Source: a virus
Virus record (IMG/VR): IMGVR_UViG_3300006810_000538
Span: 1 to 20,453 of that record
Direction: 5' to 3' (one strand)
Length of the DNA stretch: 20,453 nucleotides
In this document: positions 1,664 through 18,111 of the stretch, piece after piece
Layout of the letters: every line of letters starts with the position of its first letter
Position numbering within the stretch: position 1 is the first letter of the stretch
Program-made: the position numbers and the translations under genes
The notes under the pieces: model-generated
The model's database searches: none
Told to the model about the DNA's origin: nothing
What the model saw: the letters and a program-made list of their open reading frames with translations, nothing else

Positions 1664-1736
1664 TAGCAATCGCACCCTTCCAGTCCACTCCATCTCAGAG
1701 TTTCCCTTCTGGGTAGCTACTCCTATTCTACCTAAA

Positions 1737-3075: not shown

Positions 3076-3082
3076 GTTAAAT

Positions 3083-3097
3083 CAGGCGTCACGCCTG
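3083..3097 (-). promoter_or_regulatory. Stem-loop 7 nt before the scaffold start
   Basis: CAGGCG-TGA-CGCCTG, a perfect 6-bp stem with 3-nt loop, extendable by AAA/TTT past one bulged A. The spacer to the ATG is ATTTAAC and holds no Shine-Dalgarno sequence. It is one of a series of such hairpins ending 7-8 nt before start codons in this window. Confidence 0.6.
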
Positions 3098-3124
3098 TTT
3101 GAATGTTACGCGGTAGTATGCCAA

Positions 3125-3829
3125 TCAGTCCTGAGGGCCAGGATAGTCAGGGGTAGGATCGTCAAGGTTAGCTGTTCGCCAGAACTCATTGACGACGACG
3201 TCGTAGTAGTCAGTGATTTGCCCAGGACCGATAAACGAAAAGTCAAAGGTCTGAGTGGCTGGATTATTACCGGCGCAGTCCGCTAGTATGGTTTGGGGTC
3301 CCATGGAGTAACCAAACTGACCCAGTCTTGTTCCGTTATAAACGCGCCTAAGGCTGACGGCTCCAGAACCAGTACCACCATAATAAACCGGGTTCTGGTC
3401 GCAGACGCTGGCCTTAACGCTAACAGTCCTGTCTACGACGGTTGGCCAGTATGCACAAGTCGACCCGTCAAAACTACAGAGAGGACCAGTGCCATCACCC
3501 CCAGGGACAACATTCTCAATAGCGACGTCGGGGTTGAGTGGCTCAGGGTCCCGATACTGGATGATTTGTGTTGTCACGACATCGCCGTCTTCCAGGTACG
3601 GCTCCAATATCTCATAAGCGATATAATCTACGCCTGTTGTACTTGGGCGCGCAACAGTACTGATCGTGGCTACCCAGACTCCAACCCCGATACAGTCGCA
3701 AATCGATGCATTAAACACCCCTTGCCCACAACAGGGATCTTCAGGGTTGTAGGCCTCGCCCTCATTAGGGCCGAACAAGCACTTCTTCTTCTTCTTGCAA
3801 TCATCCATATTAGCGGCACAGATAGCCAT
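3125..3829 (-). CDS. Virion-associated protein with Cys-rich N-terminus, unknown
   Basis: A 234-residue protein of unknown function. Residues 1-46 hold seven Cys (C4, C11, C17, C33-C34, C44, C46) around a Lys run (CKKKKKC) and a CCGQG motif that recurs in the cysteine-rich protein at 5618-6802. The rest is beta-rich with aromatic and Pro/Asp turns and ends DYPGPQD, with four further Cys. No transmembrane segment or signal peptide is apparent. Its ATG abuts the TAG of the preceding zinc-ribbon gene (TAGATG), so the two are coupled; GGAG 7-8 bases upstream can act as ribosome site. It lies between the fibre and scaffold genes, so a structural or assembly role is likely but unproven. Confidence 0.75.
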   Translation of the reverse strand: MAICAANMDDCKKKKKCLFGPNEGEAYNPEDPCCGQGVFNASICDCIGVGVWVATISTVARPSTTGVDYIAYEILEPYLEDGDVVTTQIIQYRDPEPLNPDVAIENVVPGGDGTGPLCSFDGSTCAYWPTVVDRTVSVKASVCDQNPVYYGGTGSGAVSLRRVYNGTRLGQFGYSMGPQTILADCAGNNPATQTFDFSFIGPGQITDYYDVVVNEFWRTANLDDPTPDYPGPQD

Positions 3830-4183
3830 CTAGCGACTCCACTTCTTCTGAGGGCACAGCATGTTGGGGTCACCTCCAACCCACGTCTTCGCTTCCATAA
3901 AGCAACCACAATCGGAACAGCGCTTGCTCTCTGCATTGAAGAAGGGGCACTCTTTGCATGTGTTATACCTTTCTTCTCTGATCTCCGACGACACTTTCCC
4001 GTGCCTAACAGCTTGCATCCCTGTTTTCACTAAGCCGCTAGCCATCTTACCTATCCCGGCCTTGACCGCCTTAGGCTTGCCGCTATGTTTGACTATAATC
4101 TCATCGTGACGCTCCTTGGGCCAAGCAGAGACAGGACCAATAGGAGCGACCCCGTCGCAACTGAGTTCTTCTATGATGCTCAT
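3830..4183 (-). CDS. Zinc-ribbon-like cyanophage protein (DUF6171-type)
   Basis: About 117 residues from ATG at 4183; a TTG at 4192 would add three residues but would lie against a stem-loop. The C-terminal third carries CKECPFFN, then CSDCGCFM, then a final LCPQKKW: a CxxC-x10-CxxCxC arrangement expected to bind zinc or iron. I recognise it as a small conserved family of T4-like and other cyanophages with ERY..C..C at the start of the motif (family name from memory). Its role is unknown. A 6-bp stem-loop (4192-4206) ends exactly 8 nt before the ATG, which supports that start. The stop TAG is followed at once by the next ATG. Confidence 0.75.
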   Translation of the reverse strand: MSIIEELSCDGVAPIGPVSAWPKERHDEIIVKHSGKPKAVKAGIGKMASGLVKTGMQAVRHGKVSSEIREERYNTCKECPFFNAESKRCSDCGCFMEAKTWVGGDPNMLCPQKKWSR

Positions 4184-4191
4184 TCTGACCA

Positions 4192-4206
4192 ACTAGCTGG
4201 GCTAGT
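4192..4206 (-). promoter_or_regulatory. Stem-loop 8 nt before the zinc-ribbon gene start
   Basis: On the minus strand ACTAGC-CCA-GCTAGT, a perfect 6-bp stem with a 3-nt loop, begins 7 nt after the fibre stop codon. The spacer TGGTCAGA (8 nt) has no Shine-Dalgarno sequence. Confidence 0.55.
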
Positions 4207-4213
4207 ATGCCTA

Positions 4214-5563
4214 TCAGGACTTGAGGCGATAATCGCTGGAAGTCGTATTGTAGTACATAGCCCCAGAGGCCACTCCGCCGGTTCCAGCGGCTGCGTCGTC
4301 GACATATTCGCCAATGCCAAGAAGGGCTCTAGTCGCAGCTGAGGTGGTAGTTTGATTTCCATAGGCTACGATTGTCACTTCTGAGTTGACATCAGCCCCT
4401 GCTTGATCTCTGACAGCAGCATAGATGGCTTCCGTAACAGAAGTATCATTATTGAAATACGTGGTACCTGGAGTAGCCAGGACAGTAGTGCCCGCTGTAA
4501 TGTAGAACTCGGCTAAGACTCCTGAACCCGAAGCGGGGTCAGTATTGTAAGCCCTGCCATTGTCAGCCGTTCTGCTGGCTGCAGAGTCGTACAAGACGAT
4601 CCAGGCATCCAGGGAAGAGGTGACCTCCACAAGTGTCCCAGAGTGCCCGATCCCCACAAATGTAGTAATTCCGCTAGCTGCTGTCTGAGCCTCGGTCAAT
4701 CTCGCGGCAGAGGAACCACCACCACCGCCACTCGACGGTGAACCGGAAGCCAGCATCTCGATACTGATCATGCCGTGATTCGGATCGTCCCCAGTGCCGG
4801 TTGAGGCATGTGTTGAGACGACCTCCCGACTTGCACTAACGTGACCCCCGGATATCCGAGCATTGGTCATCGGCGAGTCTGTTATCTCTGTTAGGTCGTT
4901 TGCTGTTTGACTGTAGGCCTCGGTTCCAGAGCTCGCAGAATAGATCCAAGTTGCAGCAGTTAAACTTAGTGCACCAGCACCAGTACTGATAGAAGCTGTT
5001 TCAGCGTTACCGTAGGCCTCCGTAATGGTCGAAATGCCGTCGGTTCCATTAACAGCAGCTACCCAACCACAGATCCTGCCGGAGGCTGCTTGCGTCCAGG
5101 TATAAGTTCCCGGCTCTGATGATGTAACTCTTCTGGTGAAGACACTTATCGTTTGCAAGTCTCCGGAAAATGATATAGAAGAGAGATAGGACCCGTACAA
5201 AGTGAAGCCGGTTGGAGGTGTCAGAACGCCCCCACTCTGGCGATTCATGATACATGCTACTAGTAGGTCGCCCTCGGCGCTAGTTGGAGAGGTTAACGTG
5301 AACGATGTATCGGGATCGGAATCGCTGTCTATAGTCCAGCCAGTGACTGTAGGCAGAGGATTGTCATCTCCCCCAGACCCGCTAATGGTAACGATGTCAC
5401 CTAAAGCGTCTTTTGTATATAACGTCGCTGCTCCGTCAGACAGTCCTAGGACAATCTCCCCTTGAGTGATGGCGCTGACTCCACCAGTTTCGATCTCGGC
5501 AATAATGGTAGCCTCGTCGTCGGTTGAGTTTTTAAGGACAATACGATCAGGAAAGACTGCCAC
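4214..5563 (-). CDS. Tail fibre-like protein
   Basis: A 449-residue, Thr/Ser/Ala/Gly-rich beta protein with a GTG start; the frame is closed by TAG ten codons upstream and no ATG is available. The N-terminus (RIVLKNSTDDEATI, then QGEIVLGLSDGAATLYTKDA) is a motif I know from cyanophage fibre and structural proteins, probably the virion-attachment end. Residues about 70-270 form a beta-sandwich-like module (GDLLVA, SEPGTYTWT, GWVAAVNGTDGI). After a Gly-rich linker (GSPSSGGGGGSS), residues about 285-405 form a second module that I also recall from cyanophages, and the C-terminus (GGVASGAMYYNTTSSDYRLKS) resembles fibre ends. Probable role: host-contact fibre. It lies after the Cys-rich gene with a 54-base gap holding an inverted repeat near the start. 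Confidence 0.75.
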   Translation of the reverse strand: MAVFPDRIVLKNSTDDEATIIAEIETGGVSAITQGEIVLGLSDGAATLYTKDALGDIVTISGSGGDDNPLPTVTGWTIDSDSDPDTSFTLTSPTSAEGDLLVACIMNRQSGGVLTPPTGFTLYGSYLSSISFSGDLQTISVFTRRVTSSEPGTYTWTQAASGRICGWVAAVNGTDGISTITEAYGNAETASISTGAGALSLTAATWIYSASSGTEAYSQTANDLTEITDSPMTNARISGGHVSASREVVSTHASTGTGDDPNHGMISIEMLASGSPSSGGGGGSSAARLTEAQTAASGITTFVGIGHSGTLVEVTSSLDAWIVLYDSAASRTADNGRAYNTDPASGSGVLAEFYITAGTTVLATPGTTYFNNDTSVTEAIYAAVRDQAGADVNSEVTIVAYGNQTTTSAATRALLGIGEYVDDAAAGTGGVASGAMYYNTTSSDYRLKS

Positions 5564-5566
5564 AAC

Positions 5567-5591
5567 GGAACCAGAGCTAGGCTAGGGTTCC
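5567..5591 (-). promoter_or_regulatory. Inverted repeat just before the fibre GTG start
   Basis: On the minus strand GGAACC pairs with GGTTCC across a 13-nt loop and ends 3 nt before the GTG start. The stem is longer-looped and nearer the start than in the 7-8 nt set, so membership in the same class is uncertain. Confidence 0.4.
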
Positions 5592-5617
5592 CATACGCCA
5601 ATGACATGGTATCATTT

Positions 5618-6802
5618 CTATTCACATCTAGGATCAGGTTCGCATGCGCACCCGCTACTGCAAACAAAGCAGTCAGGGCAGTCGTTGTCGCAATTACAGT
5701 CGCACTCCTTGCAGGACTCGGGAGCATTACTCTTATCGCAGACCGTCCTGATATAACAGGTTCCGCCGCCTGCGGTGATAGATCCATTATCAGTACAAGA
5801 AGCACCGTCAGGACAAGGAGGTGGCGGGCCGTCACAGAAGGTTTGCCCATAGCAAGCGCCTGCGCAAGGGTCTCCTTGATCTGGGCACTTGTAGCTGTCC
5901 CGACAGGTGCTAAAGCCGCTAGTCACGTCACATGCGGAGTAGCAGCATTCGAGCTTGACCGGACCGCTGTCGCAATACTTGTACGTCGTATAGCAGGTTT
6001 GACAGTTTTCGCAATCAGTGGTGCAAGCGCCGTCATCGCCACACTTGTCGCACTTGTATGGGCAGCCTTTGTTTTCGCACCAGCAAGGAGCCCCACTGAT
6101 CTTTCCCTTGCAGGCCGTGCCTCTGAAGTCACCAAGGTCGGCGCAATAGGAGCATTCGTCACAGCTGTTGTCGTCGGTACATCCAACGCCTAGCTTTCCG
6201 TTAGCTGCCAAGTAAGAGGTGCAGAACTTGCTGCACCTTTCCGGAGGTGGCGGACAGTTTCCACAGTAGCACTGTACATAACTTCCCATCCTGCAGCACC
6301 TGCCCTGCCCACAACAGACATCGTTGGTACCTTTGCTAGTACTGGTGCCGCTACAGCCTGTCTTGAGGCATTTGCCGTTAAGACTTACCCCGATTAGCCC
6401 GTTTCCTACAGTGCCACCATTCAGCCCTTCCTCAAGGAGGACGTCACCAGGCCTCAGATTGTTTACCGCTTCTTCGTAGACCTCTGCCAGCTCCTCGTCC
6501 ATCAAGAGATAATTAACGGGACCAGATCCGCATTCACCTGGTACTCCACCTACTCCGCTTCCTCCGCTTCCTCCGTTTCCACAACCAGACATATTGCCTG
6601 ACCCGCTAGGCGAGGAGCCCGAGGTCTCTTGTACGCAGATTCCTCCAACGCAGGCCCACCCTGAAGCACAATCAGTGCTATCTTGACAGCCTGTACTATT
6701 GCTTCCTACCACGTTTAGTGGGTTGTAGTTAAGGTTGCCAGATGACAGGAAGTTCTGGGCTTGAGTCTGCTGCTTTTTTAAAAAACCGCTATATCCAGAC
6801 AC
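5618..6802 (-). CDS. Extremely cysteine-rich virion-region protein (394 aa, 54 Cys)
   Basis: Function not recognised. By my count 54 of 394 residues are Cys, 46 of them after about residue 145. The N-terminal 35 residues are ordinary (GTG start, Gln/Asn-rich). A first small Cys module (CQDSTDCASGWACVGGICV) resembles the 'DC..G..CV.G.CV' motif of EGF/knottin-like modules. A Gly/Ser linker and an acidic helical stretch (LLMDEELAEVYEEAVNNL) follow, then dense CxxC, CC and CxC clusters with Pro runs to the end. No signal peptide or membrane segment is apparent. Many close pairs could form disulfides in the extracellular virion or bind metal in the cell. It lies between small tail-tip proteins and the fibre, so a disulfide-laced tip or adhesin is a plausible guess. 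The frame is uninterrupted over 1.2 kb, so it is not spurious. Confidence 0.8.
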   Translation of the reverse strand: MSGYSGFLKKQQTQAQNFLSSGNLNYNPLNVVGSNSTGCQDSTDCASGWACVGGICVQETSGSSPSGSGNMSGCGNGGSGGSGVGGVPGECGSGPVNYLLMDEELAEVYEEAVNNLRPGDVLLEEGLNGGTVGNGLIGVSLNGKCLKTGCSGTSTSKGTNDVCCGQGRCCRMGSYVQCYCGNCPPPPERCSKFCTSYLAANGKLGVGCTDDNSCDECSYCADLGDFRGTACKGKISGAPCWCENKGCPYKCDKCGDDGACTTDCENCQTCYTTYKYCDSGPVKLECCYSACDVTSGFSTCRDSYKCPDQGDPCAGACYGQTFCDGPPPPCPDGASCTDNGSITAGGGTCYIRTVCDKSNAPESCKECDCNCDNDCPDCFVCSSGCACEPDPRCE

Positions 6803-6807
6803 TGTTT

Positions 6808-6834
6808 CTTGGCTAACTGCGTTAGGATGCCAAG
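6808..6834 (-). promoter_or_regulatory. Interrupted stem-loop before the Cys-rich gene start
   Basis: On the minus strand CTTGG...CCAAG encloses CTAAC-GCA-GTTAG, two 5-bp stems with a 4-nt one-sided bulge, ending 5 nt before the GTG start. It overlaps the stop of the upstream 116-residue gene. There is no Shine-Dalgarno sequence in the spacer AAACA. Confidence 0.45.
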
Positions 6835-7172
6835 GTTGAGTAAAATTCCAGATTCGGATCTTTTCCCAGTCCTGTCCTCGGGTCTTGGACGAAACCCCAG
6901 TTCTCGACCGCTCGCCACTCTAAGCTAACCTGGCCATTTCCAACGTTCGCGTACACAGTAACGTACATCGTAACAAAAAGCTCATTTCCATTGCGGTAGA
7001 AGAGAATTTGACCCTCTTTAGTTGCGCTTTGACTTACAGTAGTCACCTGGCCATCGACAACGAAAACTCTGGCCCCCGGTGGCGCTGTTGAGGTTATCGT
7101 GCCTACGACAGTTTTAGCGTCAGCCCTTGTTGTGACGGGAGCTCCAGCTATAACAGGATTGTTAATAGACAT
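6822..7172 (-). CDS. Small beta-rich tail-region protein (116 aa), unknown
   Basis: A 116-residue protein with alternating hydrophobic/polar strands (VVGTITSTAPPGARVFVVDGQ, ILFYRNGNELFVTMYVTVY) and an aromatic C-terminal part. I do not recognise the family. Its ATG overlaps the TAA of the preceding gene (TAATG), so translation is coupled. It belongs to a run of three small genes after the 245-residue protein, all in the tail-tip/fibre stretch, hence probably minor virion proteins or fibre connectors. Confidence 0.7.
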   Translation of the reverse strand: MSINNPVIAGAPVTTRADAKTVVGTITSTAPPGARVFVVDGQVTTVSQSATKEGQILFYRNGNELFVTMYVTVYANVGNGQVSLEWRAVENWGFVQDPRTGLGKDPNLEFYSTLAS

Positions 7173-7381
7173 TACAGAGCAAGCAGCCGAAGTCCAGAGT
7201 TATCAACAATATATAACCTTACCGTATCGGAGTTTCCATCGTAATACCCAATCAGTTTGTTAGGTACTTCCGGTGGGTCAAGGAGAACTCCCGCAGGAGG
7301 CTCCACGTACCGAACTTCAATCACTACGTCCGTGTTTTCTTTGATTGACTGCGAGGTCATCGAAACGGGATTAATAGCCAT
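7172..7381 (-). CDS. Small tail-region protein (69 aa), unknown
   Basis: A 69-residue protein beginning MAINPVSMTSQSIKENTDVV, with beta strands (VVIEVRYVEPP, LIGYYDGNSDTVRLYIVDN). The motif 'YYDGNSDTVRLYIVD' reads like a short beta hairpin of a virion surface protein. The family is unknown. The start lies 2 nt after the upstream TGA and the TAA overlaps the next ATG, so it sits in a tightly coupled string. Its small size makes it easy to miss, but coupling at both ends supports it. Confidence 0.65.
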   Translation of the reverse strand: MAINPVSMTSQSIKENTDVVIEVRYVEPPAGVLLDPPEVPNKLIGYYDGNSDTVRLYIVDNSGLRLLAL

Positions 7382-7383
7382 GA

Positions 7384-7644
7384 TCAGAACTTGCTGTAGT
7401 AAACACCATTGGCGTAGCTCAGCTCCACTTCTGTGCCCGCTGGAATAGAGACAAAGCCGATAGGCTTGGTTGCATATTGCTTATTGTTATAGCTTACAAT
7501 CCCCTCGCCCCGGCTCCCTAACTTCACCCATTTTCCCGTAACACTGCCAACAAAATCTCCCTGAATAGTCGTATCCGAAGCCCTGAACTCCAGATCCACG
7601 AGTCTGTTAGCGACGCTTGTTTGCAATAATGTGTTCAAGATCAT
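7384..7644 (-). CDS. Small beta-rich tail-region protein (86 aa), unknown
   Basis: ATG at 7644 lies 2 nt after the TGA of the 245-residue gene; a GTG at 7650 overlapping that TGA would add two residues and cannot be excluded. The protein has a short hydrophobic N-terminus (MILNTLLQTSVANRLV) and a beta-rich body with Gly-Lys-Trp and SYNNKQYATKPIGFVSIPAG, suggesting a barrel-like domain that I cannot name. It is the first of three coupled small genes. It is likely structural by position. Confidence 0.65.
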   Translation of the reverse strand: MILNTLLQTSVANRLVDLEFRASDTTIQGDFVGSVTGKWVKLGSRGEGIVSYNNKQYATKPIGFVSIPAGTEVELSYANGVYYSKF

Positions 7645-7646
7645 GG

Positions 7647-8384
7647 TCACACACTGTAGTAGCCGAACTGCTTCAGGTTCCAGTAGAAGACGGCTTCATT
7701 GCCACCAGAAAGTACAACACTTGAGGTTGTCTGTGCTACTGAAAGGATCTCTCCAGCGTTTGACGGGGTATTTACCGTATCAATCGTCACGGCAAGGTTG
7801 CCAGCGCCAGCGGAGACGATGCCTAGGCCTGCAAGGGTGCCCTCCAGGAATACAATTCCGTCAGTTGCGGCATAGTCGTAACCAGCGCTTACGATCGAAA
7901 CCGCGTAATCGGTAGAGGCAGCTCCAGAGTTAGTAACAGTCAGGTCAACCGTCATGCCGGCTCCGCTTCCTGTAGTTGTGTCTACAGGGATATTAGTGTA
8001 AGTGCCGTCAACAGCTGCACTGGGGGCCGTTGTAACCGCGCCCAGGGCCGATGCATTCCCGGTACTCCATACTAAAGCCACATGAGAAAAGTCAGTAGTA
8101 GTACCTCCCCCATCATGAGCAAAGATAGTTGCTTTTGTCGTTAGCGCAACACCGTCATCAGTGTAGGTAGAAACGTCCCCAGGACTGTAGCTAATTACTT
8201 GACGCCGATAACCACCAGTACCGAGGGGAACCTCAAAGGTCAGGAAGGATGCGTCGTTGGTGGTGCCCGGCTCGTAAGTGGTCCCAGTGGCATCGATCAG
8301 GCGGGCCTCGAACGAGTTACCTACAAATCTATTGGTAATCTGAGCCGTCAGCTCAGAGCTTGAAATTTTAGCCGCGATAGCCAT
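7647..8384 (-). CDS. Beta-rich structural protein of the tail-tip region (245 aa)
   Basis: A 245-residue Thr/Ala/Gly/Val-rich protein without Cys. Residues about 1-110 look like one beta domain (FLTFEVPLGTGGYRRQVISY), and residues about 115-245 hold repeats of the phage structural type 'T..GSGAGMTVDLTVT...V.IVSAGYDYAATDGIVFLEG'. The same strand-turn pattern appears in the putative tail-tube extension at 14985-15272. It ends FYWNLKQFGYYSV. AAGG/GGCGAG lies just before the ATG as a ribosome site. It follows the tail hub gene after a 32-base gap, so it is likely a tip or fibre-attachment protein. Confidence 0.72.
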   Translation of the reverse strand: MAIAAKISSSELTAQITNRFVGNSFEARLIDATGTTYEPGTTNDASFLTFEVPLGTGGYRRQVISYSPGDVSTYTDDGVALTTKATIFAHDGGGTTTDFSHVALVWSTGNASALGAVTTAPSAAVDGTYTNIPVDTTTGSGAGMTVDLTVTNSGAASTDYAVSIVSAGYDYAATDGIVFLEGTLAGLGIVSAGAGNLAVTIDTVNTPSNAGEILSVAQTTSSVVLSGGNEAVFYWNLKQFGYYSV

Positions 8385-8416
8385 CTCGCCTTAATCGAAT
8401 CGTCGTAGTCTTCCTA

Positions 8417-10675: not shown

Positions 10676-10676
10676 C

Positions 10677-11078
10677 TTATACCTCTGTTAATCCGAAAGA
10701 AACCATGGTCAACCTTGGACCCATCCGAACATAGGTAGGAGGGGTTGAGAACACCGCACTACCATTAACCGTGGCACCAAAAGTTTCGTCAACAACTCCG
10801 CAGGCAACAGGAAGTCCGTTCGACCTGTCCGTGTCCCAAGCCTGGAACATTTGGTCGATCTGCACGGCCTGGGCCGTAGGGACAATCGAGGAGATAACCC
10901 AGATGTACTTCTGCCTGTAGGCAGGGCCATCTAGAAGAGTCGTGCCATTAGCAGATTGAGAAAAAGAAGCCTCTGACTGATAGTTTCGAGGCATTGCATT
11001 ATCCCCAAAGTTATCAAACACAAAACTGTAAACGGGAGAACCCCCTGAAGGCGTAAACGATACTCCGATCTGCGACAT
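10677..11078 (-). CDS. Minor tail protein, distal-tail-like (133 aa)
   Basis: A 133-residue beta protein of a kind I have seen downstream of tape measures in cyanophages: MSQIGVSFTPSGGSP, YRQKYIWVISSIVPTAQAVQIDQMFQAW and the ending RMGPRLTMVSFGLTEV. It probably joins tube and hub at the tail tip, by analogy with distal tail or gpM-like proteins; the analogy is positional. A 6-bp stem-loop (11087-11102) ends exactly 8 nt before the ATG; CTGAG in the spacer is at best a weak ribosome site. The next gene starts 1 nt after its stop. Confidence 0.72.
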   Translation of the reverse strand: MSQIGVSFTPSGGSPVYSFVFDNFGDNAMPRNYQSEASFSQSANGTTLLDGPAYRQKYIWVISSIVPTAQAVQIDQMFQAWDTDRSNGLPVACGVVDETFGATVNGSAVFSTPPTYVRMGPRLTMVSFGLTEV

Positions 11079-11086
11079 CTCAGGGG

Positions 11087-11102
11087 CCTAGCTGGTGCTA
11101 GG
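11087..11102 (-). promoter_or_regulatory. Stem-loop 8 nt before the minor tail gene start
   Basis: On the minus strand CCTAGC-ACCA-GCTAGG, a perfect 6-bp stem with 4-nt loop, starts 9 nt after the upstream TGA and ends 8 nt (CCCCTGAG) before the ATG. Confidence 0.55.
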
Positions 11103-11111
11103 ATTCCGAAG

Positions 11112-11453
11112 TCAAAGACCAGCGAGTTGCTTGTACTTTTGAACATTTTCAGAGGTGTTGCCCGTTGCAGGGAAATGCTTGTTAGCTCGCACCATCTCTC
11201 TAAAGCTGTCACACCCTTCTGCAAGGAGCTGGAAGACCCCATCGTACTCGTTTACAAGTATTTCCACCACTTCGTCTGCCAGGCCGTTGTGCAGGGCGTC
11301 TCCGATGGCAATATGCAAATAAGCAAGCACGTTCCGTAAGTCCTGCTCCTCAAGCTCGTCATAAGGAGCAAAGGGGATCTCGGGGCCAGCTGCGCTCAAA
11401 GCATACTCCCATGAAAGCTTGGCGGTATCTAAGGGGCTCCCGAAATCAAACAT
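11112..11453 (-). CDS. Small helical protein after tape measure (113 aa), unknown
   Basis: A 113-residue, acidic, mostly helical protein (LEEQDLRNVLAYLHIAIGDALHNGL, LADEVVEILVNEYDGVFQLLAEG). I do not recognise it. It starts 18 bases after the tape-measure stop and precedes the minor tail gene. In many phages a chaperone or tip-assembly factor lies here; a soluble assembly helper is a reasonable guess, since the chaperone pair itself is placed elsewhere (16916-18075). Confidence 0.68.
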   Translation of the reverse strand: MFDFGSPLDTAKLSWEYALSAAGPEIPFAPYDELEEQDLRNVLAYLHIAIGDALHNGLADEVVEILVNEYDGVFQLLAEGCDSFREMVRANKHFPATGNTSENVQKYKQLAGL

Positions 11454-11471
11454 CAGACAAATCGCTTACAG

Positions 11472-14400
11472 TTAATTGTACCGAAGGCGCTTGATCTTGG
11501 CAAGTTGAACCATTATGTCACTAGCGGCCTGCGTGGGATTAATAGCTTGAATGGTTACAGAGTTTTGGACGTGATCACCTGTACTATTGTTGATTGTACT
11601 GATGGCACGAGCGACTGCATTTCCAGGGCTGACGCTGCGAGGCATGTTGATCTCAGTGTTTTGACTCGCCTTGATGCCCTTCCAGACATGAGCGGGAATA
11701 ACACTACCGCTGGAAGGAGCCTTCCAGTCCCCGAACGCAGGTGCTTTGATCTCTGACATTCTGCCAGAAGCGCTCAAGAATCCTTCTGTTCCTAGCTCGT
11801 TAACGGTATAGGTGGAACCACCAGAAACAGGGCCACCAGCAAAACGTACACCAGAGTTGCCACCAGTACCACCACCACCAGCGTTTATCTTATCCATCTC
11901 TTGCCTAATCAATTTAACTTTGTTTAGCTGGCGGGTTAAGGCGCCCTTTGTGGTCCTATCAGCGGCAGCCGAGATGTCTCCCTGAGTGTCAACCATTTTC
12001 CTCATTTCCCATTCAATATCTTCAACAGCTTGCTGCTCTTTTTTGTGGGCTTTTTTCAGTTCATCGATCTGCTTCAAGGCGGCTTTAGTGACGCTCTTGC
12101 GCTTCTCTTTTTCTTCGTCAATCATGTCATCATATGCGTTCTGTGCCTCTTTCTTTGCGTCCTGAATTGCCCGAATGTCTTCCTTCTCTTGTTGAGTCGC
12201 CTCTTTCTTTTGATCGACAAGGCCTTGAACGGCACTCGCGATATCTTCAAGGGCTTGCTGTTGTGCCTCTTGCAGTTCCTTAACACGCTCTTTCTCTTCT
12301 GCGTCTAGTCTTTTCTTCTCTTCTGCCTGCTCCTTCTCCTTCTTTGCTTTATCCTCTTCAAGTTTTTTCATCTCTTCAGCGTACTGCTTCTCTAGTTGAG
12401 CCTTCTCCTTGCTGTTTAGGATTGATTCGAGTTGAGCTTTCAGTTCCTGCTTTTTGTACTGATCAGTCTCCGCCGCGATCTGTTTGTTCAGCTCGCGTAT
12501 CTGCATCCTTTCAAGCTTTTGCTTCTGAGGCCCGTTGTCGAGGCTACCAAGTGAAGCGCTATGCCTTTGTTTTGCCTTGGCTATCGCTGCATCTATCTGA
12601 GCCATCTCCTTAGAATGAGCAGCATCCATCTCCGCTTTCACTTTGGAGTAGTAGTCCTTAACCGCTTCTATTCGGTTTGAGTAAAACGCTTTGACTGATT
12701 CTTTTTGAGAATTCAAGGCAGATATTTCTTTGTCAATACTGTTTTTTACTTCTTCTGCTGAGCGTTTAACGGAATCAATTTTCGCGTCGTAGACCCTATC
12801 TGTTGCTTCTTTCTGCCTTTCAAGGCCAGCAATCACGCTATCAATAGCGGCGAGCTCTTGATCCTTGGCCGAATTTATAGTTTCAATCTTGCGGTTCATC
12901 AACTGTTCATCCCGTTCCAGTTGCTTGTTTCTTGCCTCCACCATCTGGCCGAGTTTTTCGTTTTCTATGTCAAGTTCTTTCTGCGCTTGTGCCTGCAAAG
13001 CTGCGGTTCTTCTGGCCATTATTTCTGCTTCTTTCTTGGCATACTCCTCTTGTGTAATTGCGCCTGTTCTTTGCTGTTCAGCTAAGTTTTTTAATTCATC
13101 GTTGTATTTTGCTAATTCCGCCTTAGCTCCAGTTGTTTCGTCGCTTAGCTTAGAAAAAATATCGATAGACTTGTCAAAATTGTTATTTAACGCTTCGCCT
13201 GCTTGTTCTAAGCCCTTCAATATGCCGCCGAGGCCGGGGATATTCTTTAGGGCTTCGTAGAGCTTCATAAGTCCTTGTACGGCAAGGTCGATCGCTTTCA
13301 TGAGCATGCCGAATCCCAGGAGTAGCTTATTAACCGCAACTTTAGCGATAACCCCGAGAACATGGCCCAGACCCTGGAACAAGGCCTGAATACCCGGCAT
13401 TTCCGTGGCAATTTTCGTGAAAACCTGAATAAAAGCCGCGTAAATCTTCATCAGCTCTTTGCCGAGTGGAGCTAAAGCCTTGCCTACTGATTCTAGTCCA
13501 ATAGAGGTTAGTGTCTGCAGCTTAGCATTCAACTGGTTCAGTGTCATTCCACCTTCTGAACCCATCTTAGTAATGGCTTGCTGAGTGTCGCCAATAGAAC
13601 GCAAGAACTTAGTACGAATCTCTTCGTTAATCGCCTCAAATGCTTCAAGGAAAATACCAGAGGTGATTTCGCCGTTTTTCATGGCGGTCTCGAAGTCGGT
13701 AATACCCTTATTTGCGGCAAGCCAATTCTTCAGTTGCCCGCGCAATCCACCATCAAGTTCAGAGAACTGCTGGTTAAGCTCTTCTGACTGAAGCTTGCCT
13801 TTACCCATAACCTGAGCAAATGCTTCGATATATCGACCAGTTTGCTCGGTATTCAAGCCAAGCATTGTGGTTCTAGCTGCAAGAGACTTGATCGCGCCCT
13901 CTGTATCCTTTAAGGTACCACCGGACTCAAGGATAGCAGGGCCCAAACGACGGAAGGCTCCCTCAATCTTGCGAAGAGAAACACCATAGCTTAGTGCAAT
14001 ATTTTTAGCGGATCCTAGGATGGCATTCTGAGCCTGTATGCTTTGTCCTAGGCCGTCAAAGGTCAGCTTAATCGCCTGGATGTCCTTGACACGGCCTGTG
14101 ATCATACCGACAGCGCCAGCAACTGCGGCTAGTCCTGCCACAACAGCGCTGATCCACCCAAAAGCGGCCTGCATGGCCGCCCCTGACGCTTGAATTTTAG
14201 CCCCAAAGCCTTTAGCCGCGTTGCCCGCAGCATTTACTTGCCCGCTAAGTCCTTGAACAACCTTAGACTGTTCAGCCCATTTCTTGTTGACGACTGTTAC
14301 AAGCTGCCCTTGCTTGTTTAGTTCAACATTGTACTGGCTCATCATGGAAAGCTTTTGGCTTTCCTCACGCAGCTGTCCTTTGAGCGACGAAAGAGTACTT

Positions 14401-14891
14401 ACCCGAGTCAATACCCCTTCAAGTCTCTTGACCTCTGCAGTTTGCTCTTTTCGGAGCTGCAGGTTGCGGTTGATAGCCTGCCCGTTCTTGCTCATCGTCA
14501 AGCTTTGCTGCTTTAGCAAGTTGAGCTTATCTTTTTGAGCATTCAACTCCTGTTTGACCTTCAGGGCAGACTCGCCCTGGATAGCGACCATTTTTTTGTA
14601 GTCGGCAATCATTGGGTCCAACGTGGTGGCCGCAAGCCGCCTGACCTCCTTGAACTGACCGGCAGAACTGCTCGTCTCGTAACTAACTTTAACCGTGGCT
14701 TCAGTGTTTTTACCTGACAGCTTGGCCTTCATCTTGGCATCTAGCTGAGCAAGCAGTTTATCATTGCCTGCTGCGACGGCTGCCGCTCCTTGCTGAACCA
14801 GCTTCTGGATATCGGCCTCAGCTTTTGTGGCTGACTGACGGTCTATCGTAGGAACGATAAAAAAGTTCGTACCCTTGGTTACGTCAGCCAT
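11472..14891 (-). CDS. Tape measure protein (1139 aa)
   Basis: The tail-length ruler that fills the tube and is ejected with DNA. Visible in order: an N-terminal coiled region (about 1-230), a hydrophobic stretch (about 240-265, WISAVVAGLAAVAGAVGMI), a conserved tape-measure domain (about 270-470, with LAARTTMLGLNTEQTGRY, QVMGKGKLQSEELNQQ), a second amphipathic hydrophobic part (about 505-560), then a roughly 400-residue Lys/Glu/Gln coiled coil (about 590-990). The end GGPVSGGSTYTVNELGTEGFLSASGR is a motif typical of tape-measure C-termini. No peptidase domain was seen. At the usual 0.15 nm per residue the tail would be about 170 nm (inference). AAGGG about 10 bases before the ATG is the ribosome site. 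It follows the terminator at 14926-14950. Confidence 0.92.
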   Translation of the reverse strand: MADVTKGTNFFIVPTIDRQSATKAEADIQKLVQQGAAAVAAGNDKLLAQLDAKMKAKLSGKNTEATVKVSYETSSSAGQFKEVRRLAATTLDPMIADYKKMVAIQGESALKVKQELNAQKDKLNLLKQQSLTMSKNGQAINRNLQLRKEQTAEVKRLEGVLTRVSTLSSLKGQLREESQKLSMMSQYNVELNKQGQLVTVVNKKWAEQSKVVQGLSGQVNAAGNAAKGFGAKIQASGAAMQAAFGWISAVVAGLAAVAGAVGMITGRVKDIQAIKLTFDGLGQSIQAQNAILGSAKNIALSYGVSLRKIEGAFRRLGPAILESGGTLKDTEGAIKSLAARTTMLGLNTEQTGRYIEAFAQVMGKGKLQSEELNQQFSELDGGLRGQLKNWLAANKGITDFETAMKNGEITSGIFLEAFEAINEEIRTKFLRSIGDTQQAITKMGSEGGMTLNQLNAKLQTLTSIGLESVGKALAPLGKELMKIYAAFIQVFTKIATEMPGIQALFQGLGHVLGVIAKVAVNKLLLGFGMLMKAIDLAVQGLMKLYEALKNIPGLGGILKGLEQAGEALNNNFDKSIDIFSKLSDETTGAKAELAKYNDELKNLAEQQRTGAITQEEYAKKEAEIMARRTAALQAQAQKELDIENEKLGQMVEARNKQLERDEQLMNRKIETINSAKDQELAAIDSVIAGLERQKEATDRVYDAKIDSVKRSAEEVKNSIDKEISALNSQKESVKAFYSNRIEAVKDYYSKVKAEMDAAHSKEMAQIDAAIAKAKQRHSASLGSLDNGPQKQKLERMQIRELNKQIAAETDQYKKQELKAQLESILNSKEKAQLEKQYAEEMKKLEEDKAKKEKEQAEEKKRLDAEEKERVKELQEAQQQALEDIASAVQGLVDQKKEATQQEKEDIRAIQDAKKEAQNAYDDMIDEEKEKRKSVTKAALKQIDELKKAHKKEQQAVEDIEWEMRKMVDTQGDISAAADRTTKGALTRQLNKVKLIRQEMDKINAGGGGTGGNSGVRFAGGPVSGGSTYTVNELGTEGFLSASGRMSEIKAPAFGDWKAPSSGSVIPAHVWKGIKASQNTEINMPRSVSPGNAVARAISTINNSTGDHVQNSVTIQAINPTQAASDIMVQLAKIKRLRYN

Positions 14892-14925
14892 TTACCAAAT
14901 ACCCTTGCTGGCTTTAGCTTTCCAT

Positions 14926-14950
14926 AAAAAAAAGGGCTTGTAAGGCCCTT
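14926..14950 (-). terminator. Intrinsic terminator after the tail tube extension
   Basis: On the minus strand AAGGGC-(7 nt)-GCCCTT, a 6-bp stem, is followed directly by a T run (eight Ts in all, the first two within the stem). It lies 35 nt after the TAA that closes the tube extension frame and 35 nt before the tape-measure ATG. This position separates the high-copy tube from the low-copy tape measure. Confidence 0.88.
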
Positions 14951-14984
14951 GGTGTTTTTTGCCGTAAGTTCTATGGTTACGGAC

Positions 14985-15272
14985 TTAGGAAATGGATTCA
15001 ACTTCACCATTGTAAATTCCTGACCCGCCACCAGTGGTTTCAGTGATAACAACGGACTCACCAACCTCGAAGTTAGTACCCGGGTCGGTAATTGTAACAC
15101 TGCCGGAGATTTCTCCGCCGACAGTATTGACTGTGCCCTGAGCTGTATCACCATTGGTTCCACCTAAGATGGAAACAGGTACTGCCGTTGCGTCAGCGTT
15201 GGCCGGAGAGAAAAACTCTGTTAGGGTAAAGTTGTTCAGGGTGGCGATGCCACCCGTAGAACCTCCAGTCAG
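14985..15272 (-). CDS. In-frame extension of the tail tube (95 codons), probably by UAG readthrough
   Basis: Directly after the tube's UAG (15273-15275) the same frame is open for 95 codons to a TAA. It holds no ATG, GTG or TTG codon at its start, so it is not an ordinary gene. The product is Gly/Thr/Val-rich and beta-like: TGGSTGGIATLNNFTLTEFF, then ISGSVTITDPGTNFEVGES and an ending YNGEVESIS. Its VTITDPGTNFEVGESVVI pattern matches a repeat in the 245-residue protein at 7647-8384. C-terminal Ig-like or beta tube domains made by recoding are known in siphophages (usually by frameshift, for example SPP1 gp17.1*). Here the frame is unchanged, so stop readthrough fits. A less likely alternative is initiation at a rare AUC 12 nt after GGAGGT. 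Confidence 0.6.
   Translation of the reverse strand: MTGGSTGGIATLNNFTLTEFFSPANADATAVPVSILGGTNGDTAQGTVNTVGGEISGSVTITDPGTNFEVGESVVITETTGGGSGIYNGEVESIS
15239..15255 (-). promoter_or_regulatory. Strong stem-loop 17 nt downstream of tail tube UAG
   Basis: On the minus strand GGGTGGC-ATC-GCCACCC, a perfect 7-bp GC-rich stem with 3-nt loop, lies inside the extension frame and has no T run. It is a candidate cis-stimulator of readthrough, or a structure presenting AUC as a start. Confidence 0.55.
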
Positions 15273-15839
15273 CTAACTAGCAAGAGTCAGGTGGTAAGGA
15301 CCGTAACCGGTGAGTGTACATTCCCAGGACACGATGCTCGTAACTTCGTTAGACTCGGTGTAGCCAGTCAAGGTACCGTAACCCTCAACAGTCTCAGTGG
15401 TGCCAGTAGGACCAACACGCTTGAAAGCAACGCGAAGACCGTCAGCCACGGTATTCTGCTCGGTCAGGCGAAGAACCTTGTAAGCAGCGTCGTTGAAGTC
15501 TGCAATACCAGAAAGGGAGATACTGAAGCTCTTGGTGGTAGCTACGGCTTGAGAATAACCTTTGGTCTCGTCGTCGTAGGTGTAGATCTCTTCAGAACCG
15601 GTATCAGTCTCAAGGGCAGCGTTTGTCAAACTGGCCAAACGGATGCCAGCATCAGTGCCGTCCATCGCGTAAGCAACGGAATCTACAGTGAAGATACCAT
15701 TACTATAAGAGACGGTAGCATCGGAAGTAGGAGGGGTGGTGCTGTCGAGCGCTGGGTTGCTCGCAAAGTCGGTGATCAGAGAGTTCTGAACAGGGACAAT
15801 GTAAAAATCGTAGCCAAATGCGGCTGAAAAGTTTGCCAT
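15273..15839 (-). CDS. Major tail tube protein
   Basis: A 188-residue protein with the features of the siphophage tail tube family: N-terminal strand (FSAAFGYDFYIVPV), the core KSFSISLSGIADFNDAAYKVLR, and the C-terminal beta part (RVGPTGTTETVEGYGTLTGY, SIVSWECTLTGYGPYHLTL). Hexamers of it stack around the tape measure. It lies between the tail terminator and the tape measure, as expected. There is no Shine-Dalgarno sequence; a 5-bp stem-loop (15848-15861) ends 8 nt before the ATG. The UAG stop is followed by a 95-codon in-frame open extension, so a minor, longer form of about 284 residues is predicted. Confidence 0.85.
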   Translation of the reverse strand: MANFSAAFGYDFYIVPVQNSLITDFASNPALDSTTPPTSDATVSYSNGIFTVDSVAYAMDGTDAGIRLASLTNAALETDTGSEEIYTYDDETKGYSQAVATTKSFSISLSGIADFNDAAYKVLRLTEQNTVADGLRVAFKRVGPTGTTETVEGYGTLTGYTESNEVTSIVSWECTLTGYGPYHLTLAS

Positions 15840-15847
15840 AGGAGAAA

Positions 15848-15861
15848 CGGGCGAAAGCCCG
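15848..15861 (-). promoter_or_regulatory. Stem-loop 8 nt before the tail tube start
   Basis: On the minus strand CGGGC-TTTC-GCCCG, a 5-bp GC stem plus a possible outer G-U pair, is followed by TTTCTCCT and the ATG. The short T-rich tail makes it also resemble a weak terminator, but it is placed like the other pre-start hairpins. Confidence 0.5.
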
Positions 15862-15914
15862 CACGAAGGTACCTCAGACCCGCATGGGGCCGTTGCCTTA
15901 GATTGCCAAACCCT

Positions 15915-16349
15915 TTACTCTGCCAAAATCGGCATGTCGCCTTTAATTACTAGCATAGTCTGAACCTGTGCTCCAATCCCGTCTGCTACCGCAACAGTTT
16001 CAAAGCTTGTAGAACCCGCAAAGCGCTGCATGGCACGAGCGACCGCAGCAGTTAACTCCAATCCAGTGGCGGGCTCCCAGCAAATAAAGAAGACTTTCCA
16101 GTCAATGTATATGTCGGATCCTGAAGTCAAATAATCGCGGCGCTTTACGTCGGCTGCATCATGAATAACAACTTCGACGCCGCCGATCTTTTTGATAGCA
16201 GGTAAATCTTGTCCTGGGGTGACGACAGATATAGCAGGAGCAGTCTGACCAGCCCGGAAGGAGTATTCTCCGATCAAAAGAGGGAAACTACTGTCAGCCA
16301 CCAAAGTGTCGTAGATAACCTGTGCTGAAGTAGGAAATTGCTGTGCCAC
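15915..16349 (-). CDS. Tail terminator / tail completion protein
   Basis: A 144-residue protein with GTG start (GAG 4-5 bases upstream). The pattern of an N-terminal helix (SAQVIYDTLVADSSFPLLIG), strands with a polar loop (IYIDWKVFFICWEP), a helix (ELTAAVARAMQRFAG) and C-terminal strands fits the alpha/beta fold of tail terminators (lambda gpU-like), which cap the tube and bind the neck. It lies directly before the tube gene, as usual for this role. Assignment is by position and fold impression. The HNH gene is divergent from it, with 121 bases between the two start codons. Confidence 0.68.
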   Translation of the reverse strand: MAQQFPTSAQVIYDTLVADSSFPLLIGEYSFRAGQTAPAISVVTPGQDLPAIKKIGGVEVVIHDAADVKRRDYLTSGSDIYIDWKVFFICWEPATGLELTAAVARAMQRFAGSTSFETVAVADGIGAQVQTMLVIKGDMPILAE

Positions 16350-16424
16350 AGGCTCAAAAATGCTATTTTAGTTTACCTGGCTGGTACCATAGAGATAGAC
16401 ATACCACCCGGAGGCCAAGCGCTG

Positions 16425-16469
16425 ATGAAAGAACATTTCTCCAGTGGTGTCGTCTTTACTAATATCTGA
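16425..16469 (+). CDS. Possible 14-codon leader ORF coupled to the HNH gene
   Basis: ATG at 16425 has the better ribosome site (CCGGAGG about 9 bases upstream) and encodes MKEHFSSGVVFTNI, ending with TGA one base before the HNH ATG at 16471 (TGAGATG). The layout suggests translational coupling that limits nuclease synthesis. It could also be chance. Confidence 0.3.
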   Translation: MKEHFSSGVVFTNI

Positions 16470-16470
16470 G

Positions 16471-16923
16471 ATGCACCGATCCCAGGATTACCTCCCCGTT
16501 TACGAGAGGATTTCAGATTATTTGTACAACATGTCAGCCCTGACACGCCGAGAAGCTCGCCACCAATGGCGCACTGCTATTAAAGAATGCTGGAACAATC
16601 GTTGCGCCTACTGCGGTGCTACACCTATTGTCGACGAATCTCTTACAGACTTGACAATTGATCACGTCAGGCCTAAGAGCAACGGAGGTGAGGACAGGAC
16701 CACGAATTGTATTCCCGCTTGCCAAAAATGCAACCAAGACAAGTCTAGTCAAGAATGGATGGCCTGGTTTCGAATGCAGCCCTTCTACACCATCGAAGCA
16801 GAGTGGCGCATTCAACAATGGCTAAAAGGCGGGATCAACGGCTTTGGCCCGTACTCCGAGGAGGACGTCAAAATCGTTGAAGAATACGCCAATAAGATGA
16901 TTGGAGAGTGGCCCTCTAGCTGA
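16471..16923 (+). CDS. HNH homing-type endonuclease (zinc-bound), opposite strand
   Basis: A 150-residue protein from ATG 16471 (upstream GTG codons at 16444/16447 and an internal ATG at 16531 are alternatives). The core is a Cys-type HNH: CAYCG (C45, C48), DH at 64-65 (LTIDHVRPKSNGG), N79, then CQKCN (C84, C87, N88). The C-terminal part WMAWFRMQPFYT and the preceding RREARHQWRTAIKECW match an HNH family frequent in cyanophages (from memory). Unlike the surrounding operon it is on the plus strand, between the chaperone's second part and the tail terminator, and its 3' end overlaps the chaperone 3' end by 8 bases. These are signs of insertion as a mobile gene. No flanking direct repeats or intron-like boundaries were seen. 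Confidence 0.88.
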   Translation: MHRSQDYLPVYERISDYLYNMSALTRREARHQWRTAIKECWNNRCAYCGATPIVDESLTDLTIDHVRPKSNGGEDRTTNCIPACQKCNQDKSSQEWMAWFRMQPFYTIEAEWRIQQWLKGGINGFGPYSEEDVKIVEEYANKMIGEWPSS

Positions 16924-17530
16924 GGGTTACATCCTCCTCTGCAATGACCTTGGTAGGAATCTCGGGCAACGTCAGGTCGTAGAAGTTACCAGCAGGATCC
17001 GAGAAGGTTCGGACCTCGCCTGACGCCGATTCCAAGGCAATAAGGAACCCCTTGTACCCCGCCTCTGTTTTGCGCGGACCGACAAGGATGGCATCATGCG
17101 CAAAAAGCGCATATTGACCCCCTACTCTGCCTCGGGCAGAAGGAGAAACATCCTTGTAACAGAACAACGCCCAGCCAGGCAGCTCTTTGGCTTTGATCAT
17201 ATGAACATAGCAGGCTGCGTAGTACCCCGCAGGTCCTTGGCCCTCCAAAGGCTTGAACATTGCAAAATCTAACGGGCTTGCAGGTTTCTTGCTGCTTTTA
17301 GGATCTCTTTGACTGTTTGCGTAAACTGCAGTATTAAGAGCCACTGGCAATTCAAGCTCATGCAGCTCTGTACGACGCAGATCCAGCATCTTGTGATAAC
17401 CCCTCAGAACATATTCGTAAGGTAGCTGGTAAAAGCGATCCCAAGAGTACTCAGGGTCTCCTGGGAATGCCTTTTTCATCTTCCAGTAAATGTCCTCCCA
17501 GTCGGGCTCGACACTTTCACCAGCGCCTAC
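16916..17530 (-). CDS. Tail assembly chaperone, second part (T-like), made by -1 frameshift
   Basis: The -1 frame is open from the slippery site (17530) through an in-frame ATG at 17479 to TAG at 16918-16916, about 204 codons. Residues before the ATG (VGAGESVEPDWEDIYWK) continue naturally into MKKAFPGDPEYSWDRFYQLPYEYV. The ATG has no good ribosome site (GGAGG is 14 bases away), which favours expression as a fusion. By analogy with lambda G/GT this part would bind the tape measure while the first part binds tube protein. Its sequence is mixed alpha/beta (YYAACYVHMIKAKELPGWALF) and I recognise no named domain. Fusion length would be about 386 residues. It could alternatively be an independent gene of 187 residues. 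Confidence 0.75.
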   Translation of the reverse strand, partial: VGAGESVEPDWEDIYWKMKKAFPGDPEYSWDRFYQLPYEYVLRGYHKMLDLRRTELHELELPVALNTAVYANSQRDPKSSKKPASPLDFAMFKPLEGQGPAGYYAACYVHMIKAKELPGWALFCYKDVSPSARGRVGGQYALFAHDAILVGPRKTEAGYKGFLIALESASGEVRTFSDPAGNFYDLTLPEIPTKVIAEEDVTLS

Positions 17531-18075
17531 TTTTTTTCGATTTCGCCAAGATCCTCGCTGTCAGGACCCTCTTCGTCGCCTTTGTCGACAAGGCGCTCCA
17601 GGCTCTTCATCTCTTCGTCCCTAAAAAGGCCCGACAAGGCGTCTACAAGGTCTTCGTGGAGGTCGATGACGTCAGTCATCCCAATCTCATCATTGACGCG
17701 ATACAGGAGCATACAGTAGGCAGCCATAAGCTGCTTCTTTTGCTCACTCGCCATCATCGTTGTTGCAAGTTCAGCAATTTCGTCAGCGAACTCGTCGGCA
17801 ATAGGATATTCACACTTTTCGGGCTCACTGACAGCCAGTACGACCTGCTGATAGGCGTCCTGCTGGCCTAGCTCGAACTTAGCGCCAACAGCGCGAGAGA
17901 TCCTCATTACCATTTTCAATACATCGTCCTGAGCGTTGACATTCGCCATGAACGATTTCTCTCCTACAGTTAGGAATCCCTTGCGCTCGATCTCAATTTT
18001 ACCGCTAACATCGCTGCCTAGCGTCTCAATGCGAGAGTTGACCCTAGGTGCGACCACGAAAGGAAGCTTACTCAT
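17527..18075 (-). CDS. Tail assembly chaperone, first part (G-like)
   Basis: A 182-residue acidic protein: a short beta N-terminus (LPFVVAPRVNSRIETLG), strands, then helices (DDVLKMVMRISRAVGAKFELG, ADEFADEIAELATTMMASEQ) and a strongly acidic tail ending in EIEKK. This matches the general make-up of siphophage G-type chaperones. The last codons GAA AAA AAG TAG contain the A AAA AAG slippery heptamer, and the -1 frame continues into the next ORF. It keeps tube or tape-measure protein soluble and sets their joining; it is not expected in the virion. It follows the neck genes and is preceded by a 6-bp stem-loop (18084-18098) ending 8 nt before the ATG, with no Shine-Dalgarno sequence in the spacer. 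Confidence 0.78.
   Translation of the reverse strand: MSKLPFVVAPRVNSRIETLGSDVSGKIEIERKGFLTVGEKSFMANVNAQDDVLKMVMRISRAVGAKFELGQQDAYQQVVLAVSEPEKCEYPIADEFADEIAELATTMMASEQKKQLMAAYCMLLYRVNDEIGMTDVIDLHEDLVDALSGLFRDEEMKSLERLVDKGDEEGPDSEDLGEIEKK
17530..17536 (-). promoter_or_regulatory. Programmed -1 frameshift site (A AAA AAG)
   Basis: In frame GAA AAA AAG TAG gives heptamer A AAA AAG in the exact X XXY YYZ register of E. coli dnaX, immediately before the zero-frame stop. A GAGGA lies about 14 bases upstream, a possible Shine-Dalgarno-like stimulator. Downstream only a short GTCG/CGAC stem is seen. After slippage the next codon is GTA and the -1 frame runs to 16916. Confidence 0.82.
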
Positions 18076-18083
18076 TAGGGATA

Positions 18084-18098
18084 CCAGTTAAAAACTGG
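18084..18098 (-). promoter_or_regulatory. Stem-loop 8 nt before the chaperone start
   Basis: On the minus strand CCAGTT-TTT-AACTGG, a perfect 6-bp stem with 3-nt loop, starts 13 nt after the upstream TAA. The spacer TATCCCTA (8 nt) contains no Shine-Dalgarno sequence. Confidence 0.55.
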
Positions 18099-18111
18099 AC
18101 TAGAGTACCTA

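Follow-up and report, generated by a model that had tools for sequence, protein, structure and literature searches.

What do the short hairpins do that stand just before the start codons of several structural genes in IMG/VR record IMGVR_UViG_3300006810_000538? The stretch analysed here, hereafter the window, is 20,453 bases of that record and carries the minus-strand late genes of a siphovirus, with PHROG names among its proteins that include major capsid protein (MCP), scaffold, tape measure, major tail and neck. A Megablast search of the window against known phages gave no match; its MCP is 83-84% identical to those of the Synechococcus phages S-CBS2 and S-CRES1-3 and 52% identical to that of PSS2. 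The initial annotation had proposed that a stem-loop about 8 nucleotides (nt) before the start codon takes the place of a Shine-Dalgarno (SD) site in five of these genes. For 22 genes of the window we collected the leaders of homologues from about 160 IMG/VR loci and from S-CBS2, S-CRES2, S-CRES3 and PSS2, and compared hairpin counts with dinucleotide shuffles. The results suggest a more particular answer, an RNA element on the scaffold and MCP messages that lies downstream of a promoter-like DNA motif, TAGGnATnCTA.

Conserved hairpins in the scaffold and MCP leaders

The scaffold gene (2356-3075, minus strand) is preceded by the hairpin CAGGCG-TGA-CGCCTG at 3083-3097 on the same strand, which ends 7 nt before the ATG and has the apex G-NGA-Y, an NGA triloop closed by a G-Y pair. 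It is kept in 41 of 51 leaders, where 1.1 would be expected. Across 48 aligned leaders (alignment A1) both sides change in six of the seven pairs, and the covariation score is 0.474 compared with 0.173 after shuffling (0/500) and at most 0.104 when slid. The apex is present in 48/48 leaders, closed by G-U in 40 and by G-C in eight, with the loops GTGAT (33), GAGAT (6), GTGAC (5), GAGAC (3) and GCGAT (1); from the G-U closing pairs it follows that the fold forms in RNA of the coding strand. Between the hairpin and the motif of this gene (GGCATACTA, 3114-3122, minus strand, 47 nt before the start) lies a conserved single-stranded segment, GTAACATTC, at 3101-3109 on the minus strand. By this comparative evidence the scaffold hairpin is a conserved cis-acting RNA element and no generic leader hairpin.

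The same apex recurs before the MCP gene, in a structured leader of about 120 nt (1596-1723, minus strand) that the initial annotation had missed. Reading towards the gene, it comprises a CCC-AGAA-GGG 5' hairpin, hairpin H1, a GGGUG/CACCC stem, hairpin H2 and an SD-like AAAGG, with the long-range GGGUG/CACCC stem enclosing H2; a motif variant, TAGGTAGAATA, stands before it at 1724-1734 on the minus strand. Alignment of 55 leaders (A3) shows a conserved RNA, with a covariation score of 0.580 against 0.264 for shuffled alignments (0/500) and at most 0.147 when slid, and the window leader itself has a folding z of -3.05. H1 (ACTCTGAGATGGAGT, 1687-1701, minus strand) carries apical GAGAU, and GWGAY is found in 53/55 relatives; H2 (AACGGTTGTGACAATCGTT, 1645-1663, minus strand) carries apical GUGAC, and GNGAY is found in 49/55. 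In each of the two, five of six pairs are doubly changed. All three hairpins, one on the scaffold message and two on the MCP message, therefore present an NGA loop.

This loop is also found in distant phages. The Mesyanzhinovviridae PAE1 and CN1 have G-NGA-Y hairpins before both scaffold and MCP genes, and their MCPs are only 26-27% identical to that of the window. Among 80 Yuavirus-like IMG/VR loci the hairpin occurs in 29 of 54 scaffold leaders (0.8 expected) and 47 of 70 MCP leaders (1.65 expected), and NGA is by far the commonest triloop in them. Compared with the rest of the same strand, the density of G-NGA-Y hairpins in scaffold and MCP leaders is raised 75-fold in the cyanosiphovirus group and 33-fold in the Yuavirus-like loci; on the opposite strand it is at background level. 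A second loop type, GGU or GGG (GGK), sits in the scaffold leaders and, for most such phages, the MCP leaders of phages of Caulobacter, Brevundimonas, Rhodobacter, roseobacters, Erythrobacter, Mesorhizobium and Microcystis. Ten distant phage loci hold 22 GGK triloops where about 0.3 would be expected, and two further loci have them also; RBC63, RcXuper, CcrSC, Marchewka, DSS3_MAL1 and MD18 have them in both leaders, and in the MCP tree the GGK phages group in a single clade (98/94). Hosts cut across the loop types, with NGA in phages of Synechococcus and Pseudomonas and GGK in those of Microcystis and Caulobacter. CcrColossus, Mwe-JY26, Cp1R7A-A1 and XM05 have a canonical hairpin in only one of the two leaders, and in PSS2 only the scaffold hairpin is clear (A1).

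Position is looser than loop sequence. The initial annotation had described a fixed spacing to the start codon, which does not hold: in other lineages the distance from a G-NGA-Y hairpin to the start codon is mostly 10-46 nt for scaffold genes and 33-97 nt for MCP genes. This variation also bears on whether the NGA loops might make tertiary contacts or loop-loop pairings within the leader, as in a riboswitch-like or multi-hairpin fold, in place of binding a protein. The two NGA hairpins, long-range stem and alternative ACCC/GGGU pairings of the MCP leader would suit such a fold, as would the resemblance of GNGA to GNRA loops. However, the scaffold leader usually has a single NGA hairpin and no conserved receptor, and hairpin number and spacing vary among lineages; we consider such a fold very unlikely as the explanation.

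A candidate reader of the loop

That scaffold and MCP mRNAs share one loop suggests a binding site for a single protein encoded by the phage; a phage origin of this ligand is favoured by loop types that cut across hosts. All 15 checked phages with NGA or GGK hairpins beside an annotated scaffold gene have a scaffold of the phrog_206 family (the window, PSS2, PAE1, CN1, RBC63, CcrSC, Marchewka, Kikimora, CcrColossus, RcXuper, DSS3_MAL1, MD18, Mwe-JY26, Cp1R7A-A1 and XM05). Halcyone and Rowa have scaffolds of other families and lack such hairpins, with MCPs 33-37% identical to that of the window, nearer to it than the Yuavirus-like MCPs. The hairpins thus track phrog_206, a correlation drawn from few lineages that makes the scaffold protein the favoured candidate for the ligand.

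From the computed hairpins, their covariation, their shared loop and their confinement to these leaders, we infer that the scaffold and MCP hairpins may serve as an RNA operator on late transcripts that would begin at the motif, with a phage protein as ligand, most probably the scaffold of the phrog_206 family. We put the probability of this reading at about 0.5. Among the roles listed in the initial annotation, a binding site for a phage protein has become the leading idea, as a candidate and for the scaffold element only. More tentatively, and with clearly less than even confidence, phrog_206 scaffolds in general may recognise lineage-specific triloops (G-NGA-Y or GGK) on scaffold and MCP mRNAs, which would make this a widespread and undescribed operator system.

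Several observations weigh against the operator. Rhizobium phage V1VFA-S and Brevundimonas phage Poludnitsa have phrog_206 scaffolds and neither loop type. About half of the scaffold leaders and a third of the MCP leaders in the Yuavirus-like loci lack a 5-bp G-NGA-Y hairpin, and in Xanthomonas phage DoCa5 an MCP-leader hairpin is present with no scaffold gene annotated adjoining it. Many of the sequences are kin to each other, and the hairpin counts are hence not independent. The scaffold hairpins cover no SD sequence (an SD-like sequence occurs in 3/48 leaders), and a mechanism of simple SD masking is thereby excluded. Finally, a host RNA-binding protein common to all these hosts would be an alternative ligand.

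By eye, the MCP leaders of V1VFA-S (L213, upstream of 1701) and Poludnitsa (L214, upstream of 1695) each contain two copies of another hairpin, GTAAGT-AAGT-GCTTAC-like in the former and GGGGGGATACCC in the latter, which would fit a separate repeated loop in each lineage.

The proposed operator has partial parallels in known systems. In the RNA phages MS2 and Qbeta the coat protein reads a small operator hairpin near a start codon. The elements described here are likewise small hairpins with a conserved loop near a start codon, for which a capsid-protein reader is only proposed; they differ in belonging to double-stranded DNA tailed phages, in having an NGA triloop closed by G-Y, in lying upstream of the start codon and not over it, and in that the ligand is a candidate. 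Ribosomal-protein and other autogenous leaders are also structured and present a conserved recognition loop on the mRNAs of the regulated proteins. The leaders of the window share this layout, and unlike those leaders they match no family in Rfam 15, where the only hit is a sub-threshold one to pemK elsewhere in the window. The functional precedent for the proposed logic is phage P22, a tailed phage whose scaffolding protein gene is autoregulated (Wyckoff and Casjens, 1985, cited in PMC5744158); the account of P22 given there names no RNA element, whereas here hairpins are present in both scaffold and MCP leaders.

The tail-tube leader and the remaining hairpins

A third conserved leader, of about 60 nt, precedes the tail-tube gene (15273-15839, minus strand). 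It begins with motif GGCAATCTA at 15899-15907, 68 nt before the start, continues with a GGCCC..GGGUC stem and a near-invariant GAGGUACCUUC core (15862-15894), and is ended by the terminal hairpin CGGGC-TTTC-GCCCG (15848-15861), 8 nt before the ATG, all on the minus strand (alignment A2). The hairpin is found in 23/56 leaders against 1.3 expected. A search of IMG/VR with a specific leader pattern gave 38 sites; every one of the 38 immediately precedes a tube homologue, and 36 have the motif upstream. Variation among these leader sequences is so slight that covariation is weak, and the misplacement of one sub-group by MAFFT adds to this weakness; with that weak compensation, the pattern of conservation argues that the tube hairpin is part of a conserved RNA. 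One tube stem, GAAGGU/ACCUUC, competes with GGNCC/GGUCC, and inspection by eye shows it disrupted in several relatives. The tube leader looks different in some relatives, L094, L111, S-CBS2 and S-CRES3 among them: a second type, GGTGGG(g)CAAG-CCCGCC...CTTG, resembles an H-type pseudoknot and occurs in L094, L111, L113, L127, L134, L137 and L142, and a third occurs in S-CBS2 and S-CRES3.

The tube leader is conserved and has no NGA loop, as would be expected if all these leaders acted through host machinery, as 5' stabilisers against RNase E, as RNase III sites or as sites for host RNA-binding proteins with no phage ligand, raising or timing the expression of abundant virion proteins. Structured 5' leaders stabilise bacterial mRNA, and scaffold, MCP and tube are abundant virion or procapsid proteins. 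Their genes also lie in units closed by intrinsic terminators on the minus strand, at 2283-2304 after the scaffold gene, at 666-683 after the MCP gene (followed by motif GGAAACCTA at 635-643) and at 14932-14950 downstream of the tube gene (followed by motif GGAAAGCTA at 14915-14923). A stabiliser, however, needs no invariant triloop on covarying stems common to two genes, and the lineage-specific loops cut across hosts. We regard action through host machinery alone as fairly unlikely.

The five minus-strand hairpins of the initial annotation are all present exactly as described. Besides those of the scaffold and tube genes, they are CCAGTT-TTT-AACTGG at the chaperone position (18084-18098, 8 nt before the ATG of 17527-18075, with motif GGTACTCTA at 18101-18109), CCTAGC-ACCA-GCTAGG of the minor-tail gene (11087-11102, 8 nt before the start of 10677-11078, with motif GGAATCCTA at 11099-11107) and ACTAGC-CCA-GCTAGT of the zinc-ribbon gene (4192-4206, with motif GGCATACTA at 4203-4211), all on the minus strand. 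The last counts only if the gene starts at the ATG of 4183-4181, which gives a distance of 8 nt, in place of the listed TTG at 4192. Taking perfect stems of at least 5 bp with loops of 3-4 nt that end 3-9 nt before a start, five of 26 window starts have a hairpin, compared with 0.41 expected from random minus-strand positions (Poisson P of about 7e-5, post hoc and before correction). These five include the weak A+U hairpin AAAATAGCATTTT upstream of 16349 but do not include the zinc-ribbon hairpin, which is additional. The enrichment over chance that had been claimed thus holds in the window and is only slight in annotated relatives, where observed and expected counts with loops of up to 8 nt are 3/2.2, 2/2.2, 5/2.6, 8/2.9 and 5/2.2.

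Conservation separates the hairpins more sharply. Only the scaffold and tube hairpins persist by gene family. The zinc-ribbon hairpin is found in none of 41 leaders; the chaperone hairpin in 5/56 (1.5 expected), being confined to the window and a few close relatives; the minor-tail hairpin in 6/42 (1.6 expected), mostly in near-identical leaders; and the 16349 hairpin in 8/61, it and every family besides scaffold and tube being at or near chance. Three of the five reported hairpins accordingly fail the test of conservation in relatives that had been set for them, and the layout thought to be shared by five genes is not a conserved property. The idea that structure is kept while sequence changes survives strongly for the scaffold hairpin and with some compensation for the tube hairpin, and falls for the other three.

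These three are by-products of the promoter-like DNA motif that they adjoin or overlap. The zinc-ribbon hairpin is built from the CTA of the motif and a common downstream GCCCAGC, and the 5' arms of both the zinc-ribbon and the minor-tail hairpin lie within the motif, so that if transcription starts 5-8 nt downstream of it neither would be complete in its mRNA. The minor-tail leaders of L002, L086, L135 and the window (11079-11107, minus strand) agree at every position over about 30 nt, yet protein identity is only 65-70%, which suggests leader exchange by recombination.

Other roles for the hairpins were considered and rejected. They are not intrinsic terminators, as the five reported ones have no T run, and none appears in the list from the intrinsic-terminator scan. 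In T4 gene 25/38 a hairpin brings the Shine-Dalgarno sequence near the start; there is no SD sequence 5' of the scaffold, chaperone or minor-tail hairpins. In T4 gene e a promoter lies inside a hairpin, and this geometry fits the zinc-ribbon and minor-tail hairpins, but both are not conserved. Masking of an SD sequence is rejected as well: only 3 of 48 scaffold leaders and none of 44 tube leaders have an SD-like sequence close to the start.

The SD signal itself follows the motif. Mean SD energy in 80 motif leaders is -2.84 kcal/mol, against -2.96 kcal/mol after shuffling, and in coupled genes it is -4.13 against -2.81 kcal/mol. Motif leaders without an SD signal and coupled genes with one indicate that SD absence tracks the motif, with or without a hairpin, and the proposal that hairpins replace SD sites does not stand: the MCP leader has conserved hairpins together with an SD-like sequence (50/55). 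In favour of a general stem-loop about 8 nt ahead of start codons one could cite the five to six window hairpins at 7-8 nt, with their uncorrected P of about 7e-5, and the motif leaders that carry no SD signal above chance. Set against the loss of three of five hairpins in relatives, the weak enrichment in annotated relatives and the joint presence of hairpins and SD-like sequence before MCP, such a device is scarcely credible.

A late promoter-like motif and the proposed control of capsid building

The motif, unreported in the initial annotation, emerged from side-by-side comparison of the leaders. Its core, GGNANNCTA, occurs in 92 of 293 leaders (6.6 expected), and 67 of 95 hits lie at -35 to -26. 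The hits give the consensus T.GG[AC]An[AC]CTAG, followed downstream by a weaker GCCCAGCT. No column resembles a -35 element, and apart from three positions adjoining the motif, upstream columns hold at most 0.22 bits. It is nearly all-or-none by gene family and mostly absent where a gene abuts its upstream neighbour. Among uncoupled genes of S-CBS2 it precedes 18/40 late genes compared with 2/26 others (P 0.001). An intrinsic terminator lies at most 60 nt before the motif in 10/80 motif leaders (0.2 expected) and in 3/213 leaders without it (Fisher P 2e-4). The distance from motif to start is about 30 nt at many starts and grows to 47 nt for scaffold, 68 nt for tube and about 135 nt for MCP, with a structured leader between.

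The terminators before the motif, its late-gene bias and the growth of the distance with a structured leader lead us to read it as a late promoter. It could instead be an RNA processing or ribosome-loading element, as its fixed distance of about 30 nt from many starts and the lack of SD sequences in those genes might suggest; the terminator counts, the stretching of that distance and the late-gene preference in S-CBS2 argue against this, and we think it quite unlikely. Sigma-70 promoters do not account for these genes, as TTGACA/TATAAT pairs occur at 15 sites before them, compared with 15.4 in shuffles. T4 late promoters have one short conserved element and no -35 conservation, and dozens stand before late genes (PMC2988020). 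The motif is like them in being a single element without -35 conservation in dozens of copies before late genes, and unlike them in its sequence, TAGGnATnCTA and not the T4 TATA box. It is best read as a putative single-element late promoter in the T4 style, a candidate late promoter of this cyanosiphovirus group that stands before most uncoupled late genes. Relatives encode sigma-like proteins: S-CBS2 gp061/gp077, annotated rpoD/rpoS, and a group 3 sigma factor in PSS2 (PMC2784084). We found the leaders, hairpins and motif described in no paper among the open-licence literature.

In leaders of two relatives, S-CRES3 (L165, 30710) and S-CBS2 (L162, 32976 and 33383), the motif is followed by a terminator-like hairpin and T run directly before the ATG, a terminator thus being placed between promoter-like motif and start codon. 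An endonuclease VII/HNH-like gene lies between the scaffold and MCP genes of the window (1737-2261, minus strand), and an HNH-looking open reading frame on the opposite strand lies between tail genes (16444-16923, plus strand); annotated HNH genes occupy similar places in S-CBS2, S-CRES2 and S-CRES3.

We propose that late RNA would start at the motif before most uncoupled late genes, and that in scaffold, MCP and tube transcripts a conserved structured leader would separate the motif from the start codon. The scaffold hairpin would then lie near the 5' end of the scaffold mRNA, where a protein, probably free scaffold, may bind the NGA apex and alter ribosome access or decay; the two copies on the MCP mRNA may act alike. 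Binding could match scaffold and capsid synthesis to the progress of procapsid assembly, acting through either repression or stabilisation.

The balance of scaffold and capsid protein in tailed phages is an old question, with the P22 precedent dating from 1985. A hairpin with an invariant loop on both mRNAs, across distant phages, supplies a defined RNA, a candidate protein and loop-mutant controls, for which Yuavirus on Pseudomonas aeruginosa PAO1 and the Caulobacter phages on CB15 are suitable laboratory pairs. For a group of marine cyanophages, the motif is in addition a candidate late promoter. Taken together, the leader comparisons suggest that these phages probably control capsid building through their mRNA; if phrog_206 scaffolds do recognise these triloops, then in phages of cyanobacteria, Pseudomonas, Bordetella, Xanthomonas and Alphaproteobacteria the synthesis of capsid proteins would be tied to procapsid assembly.

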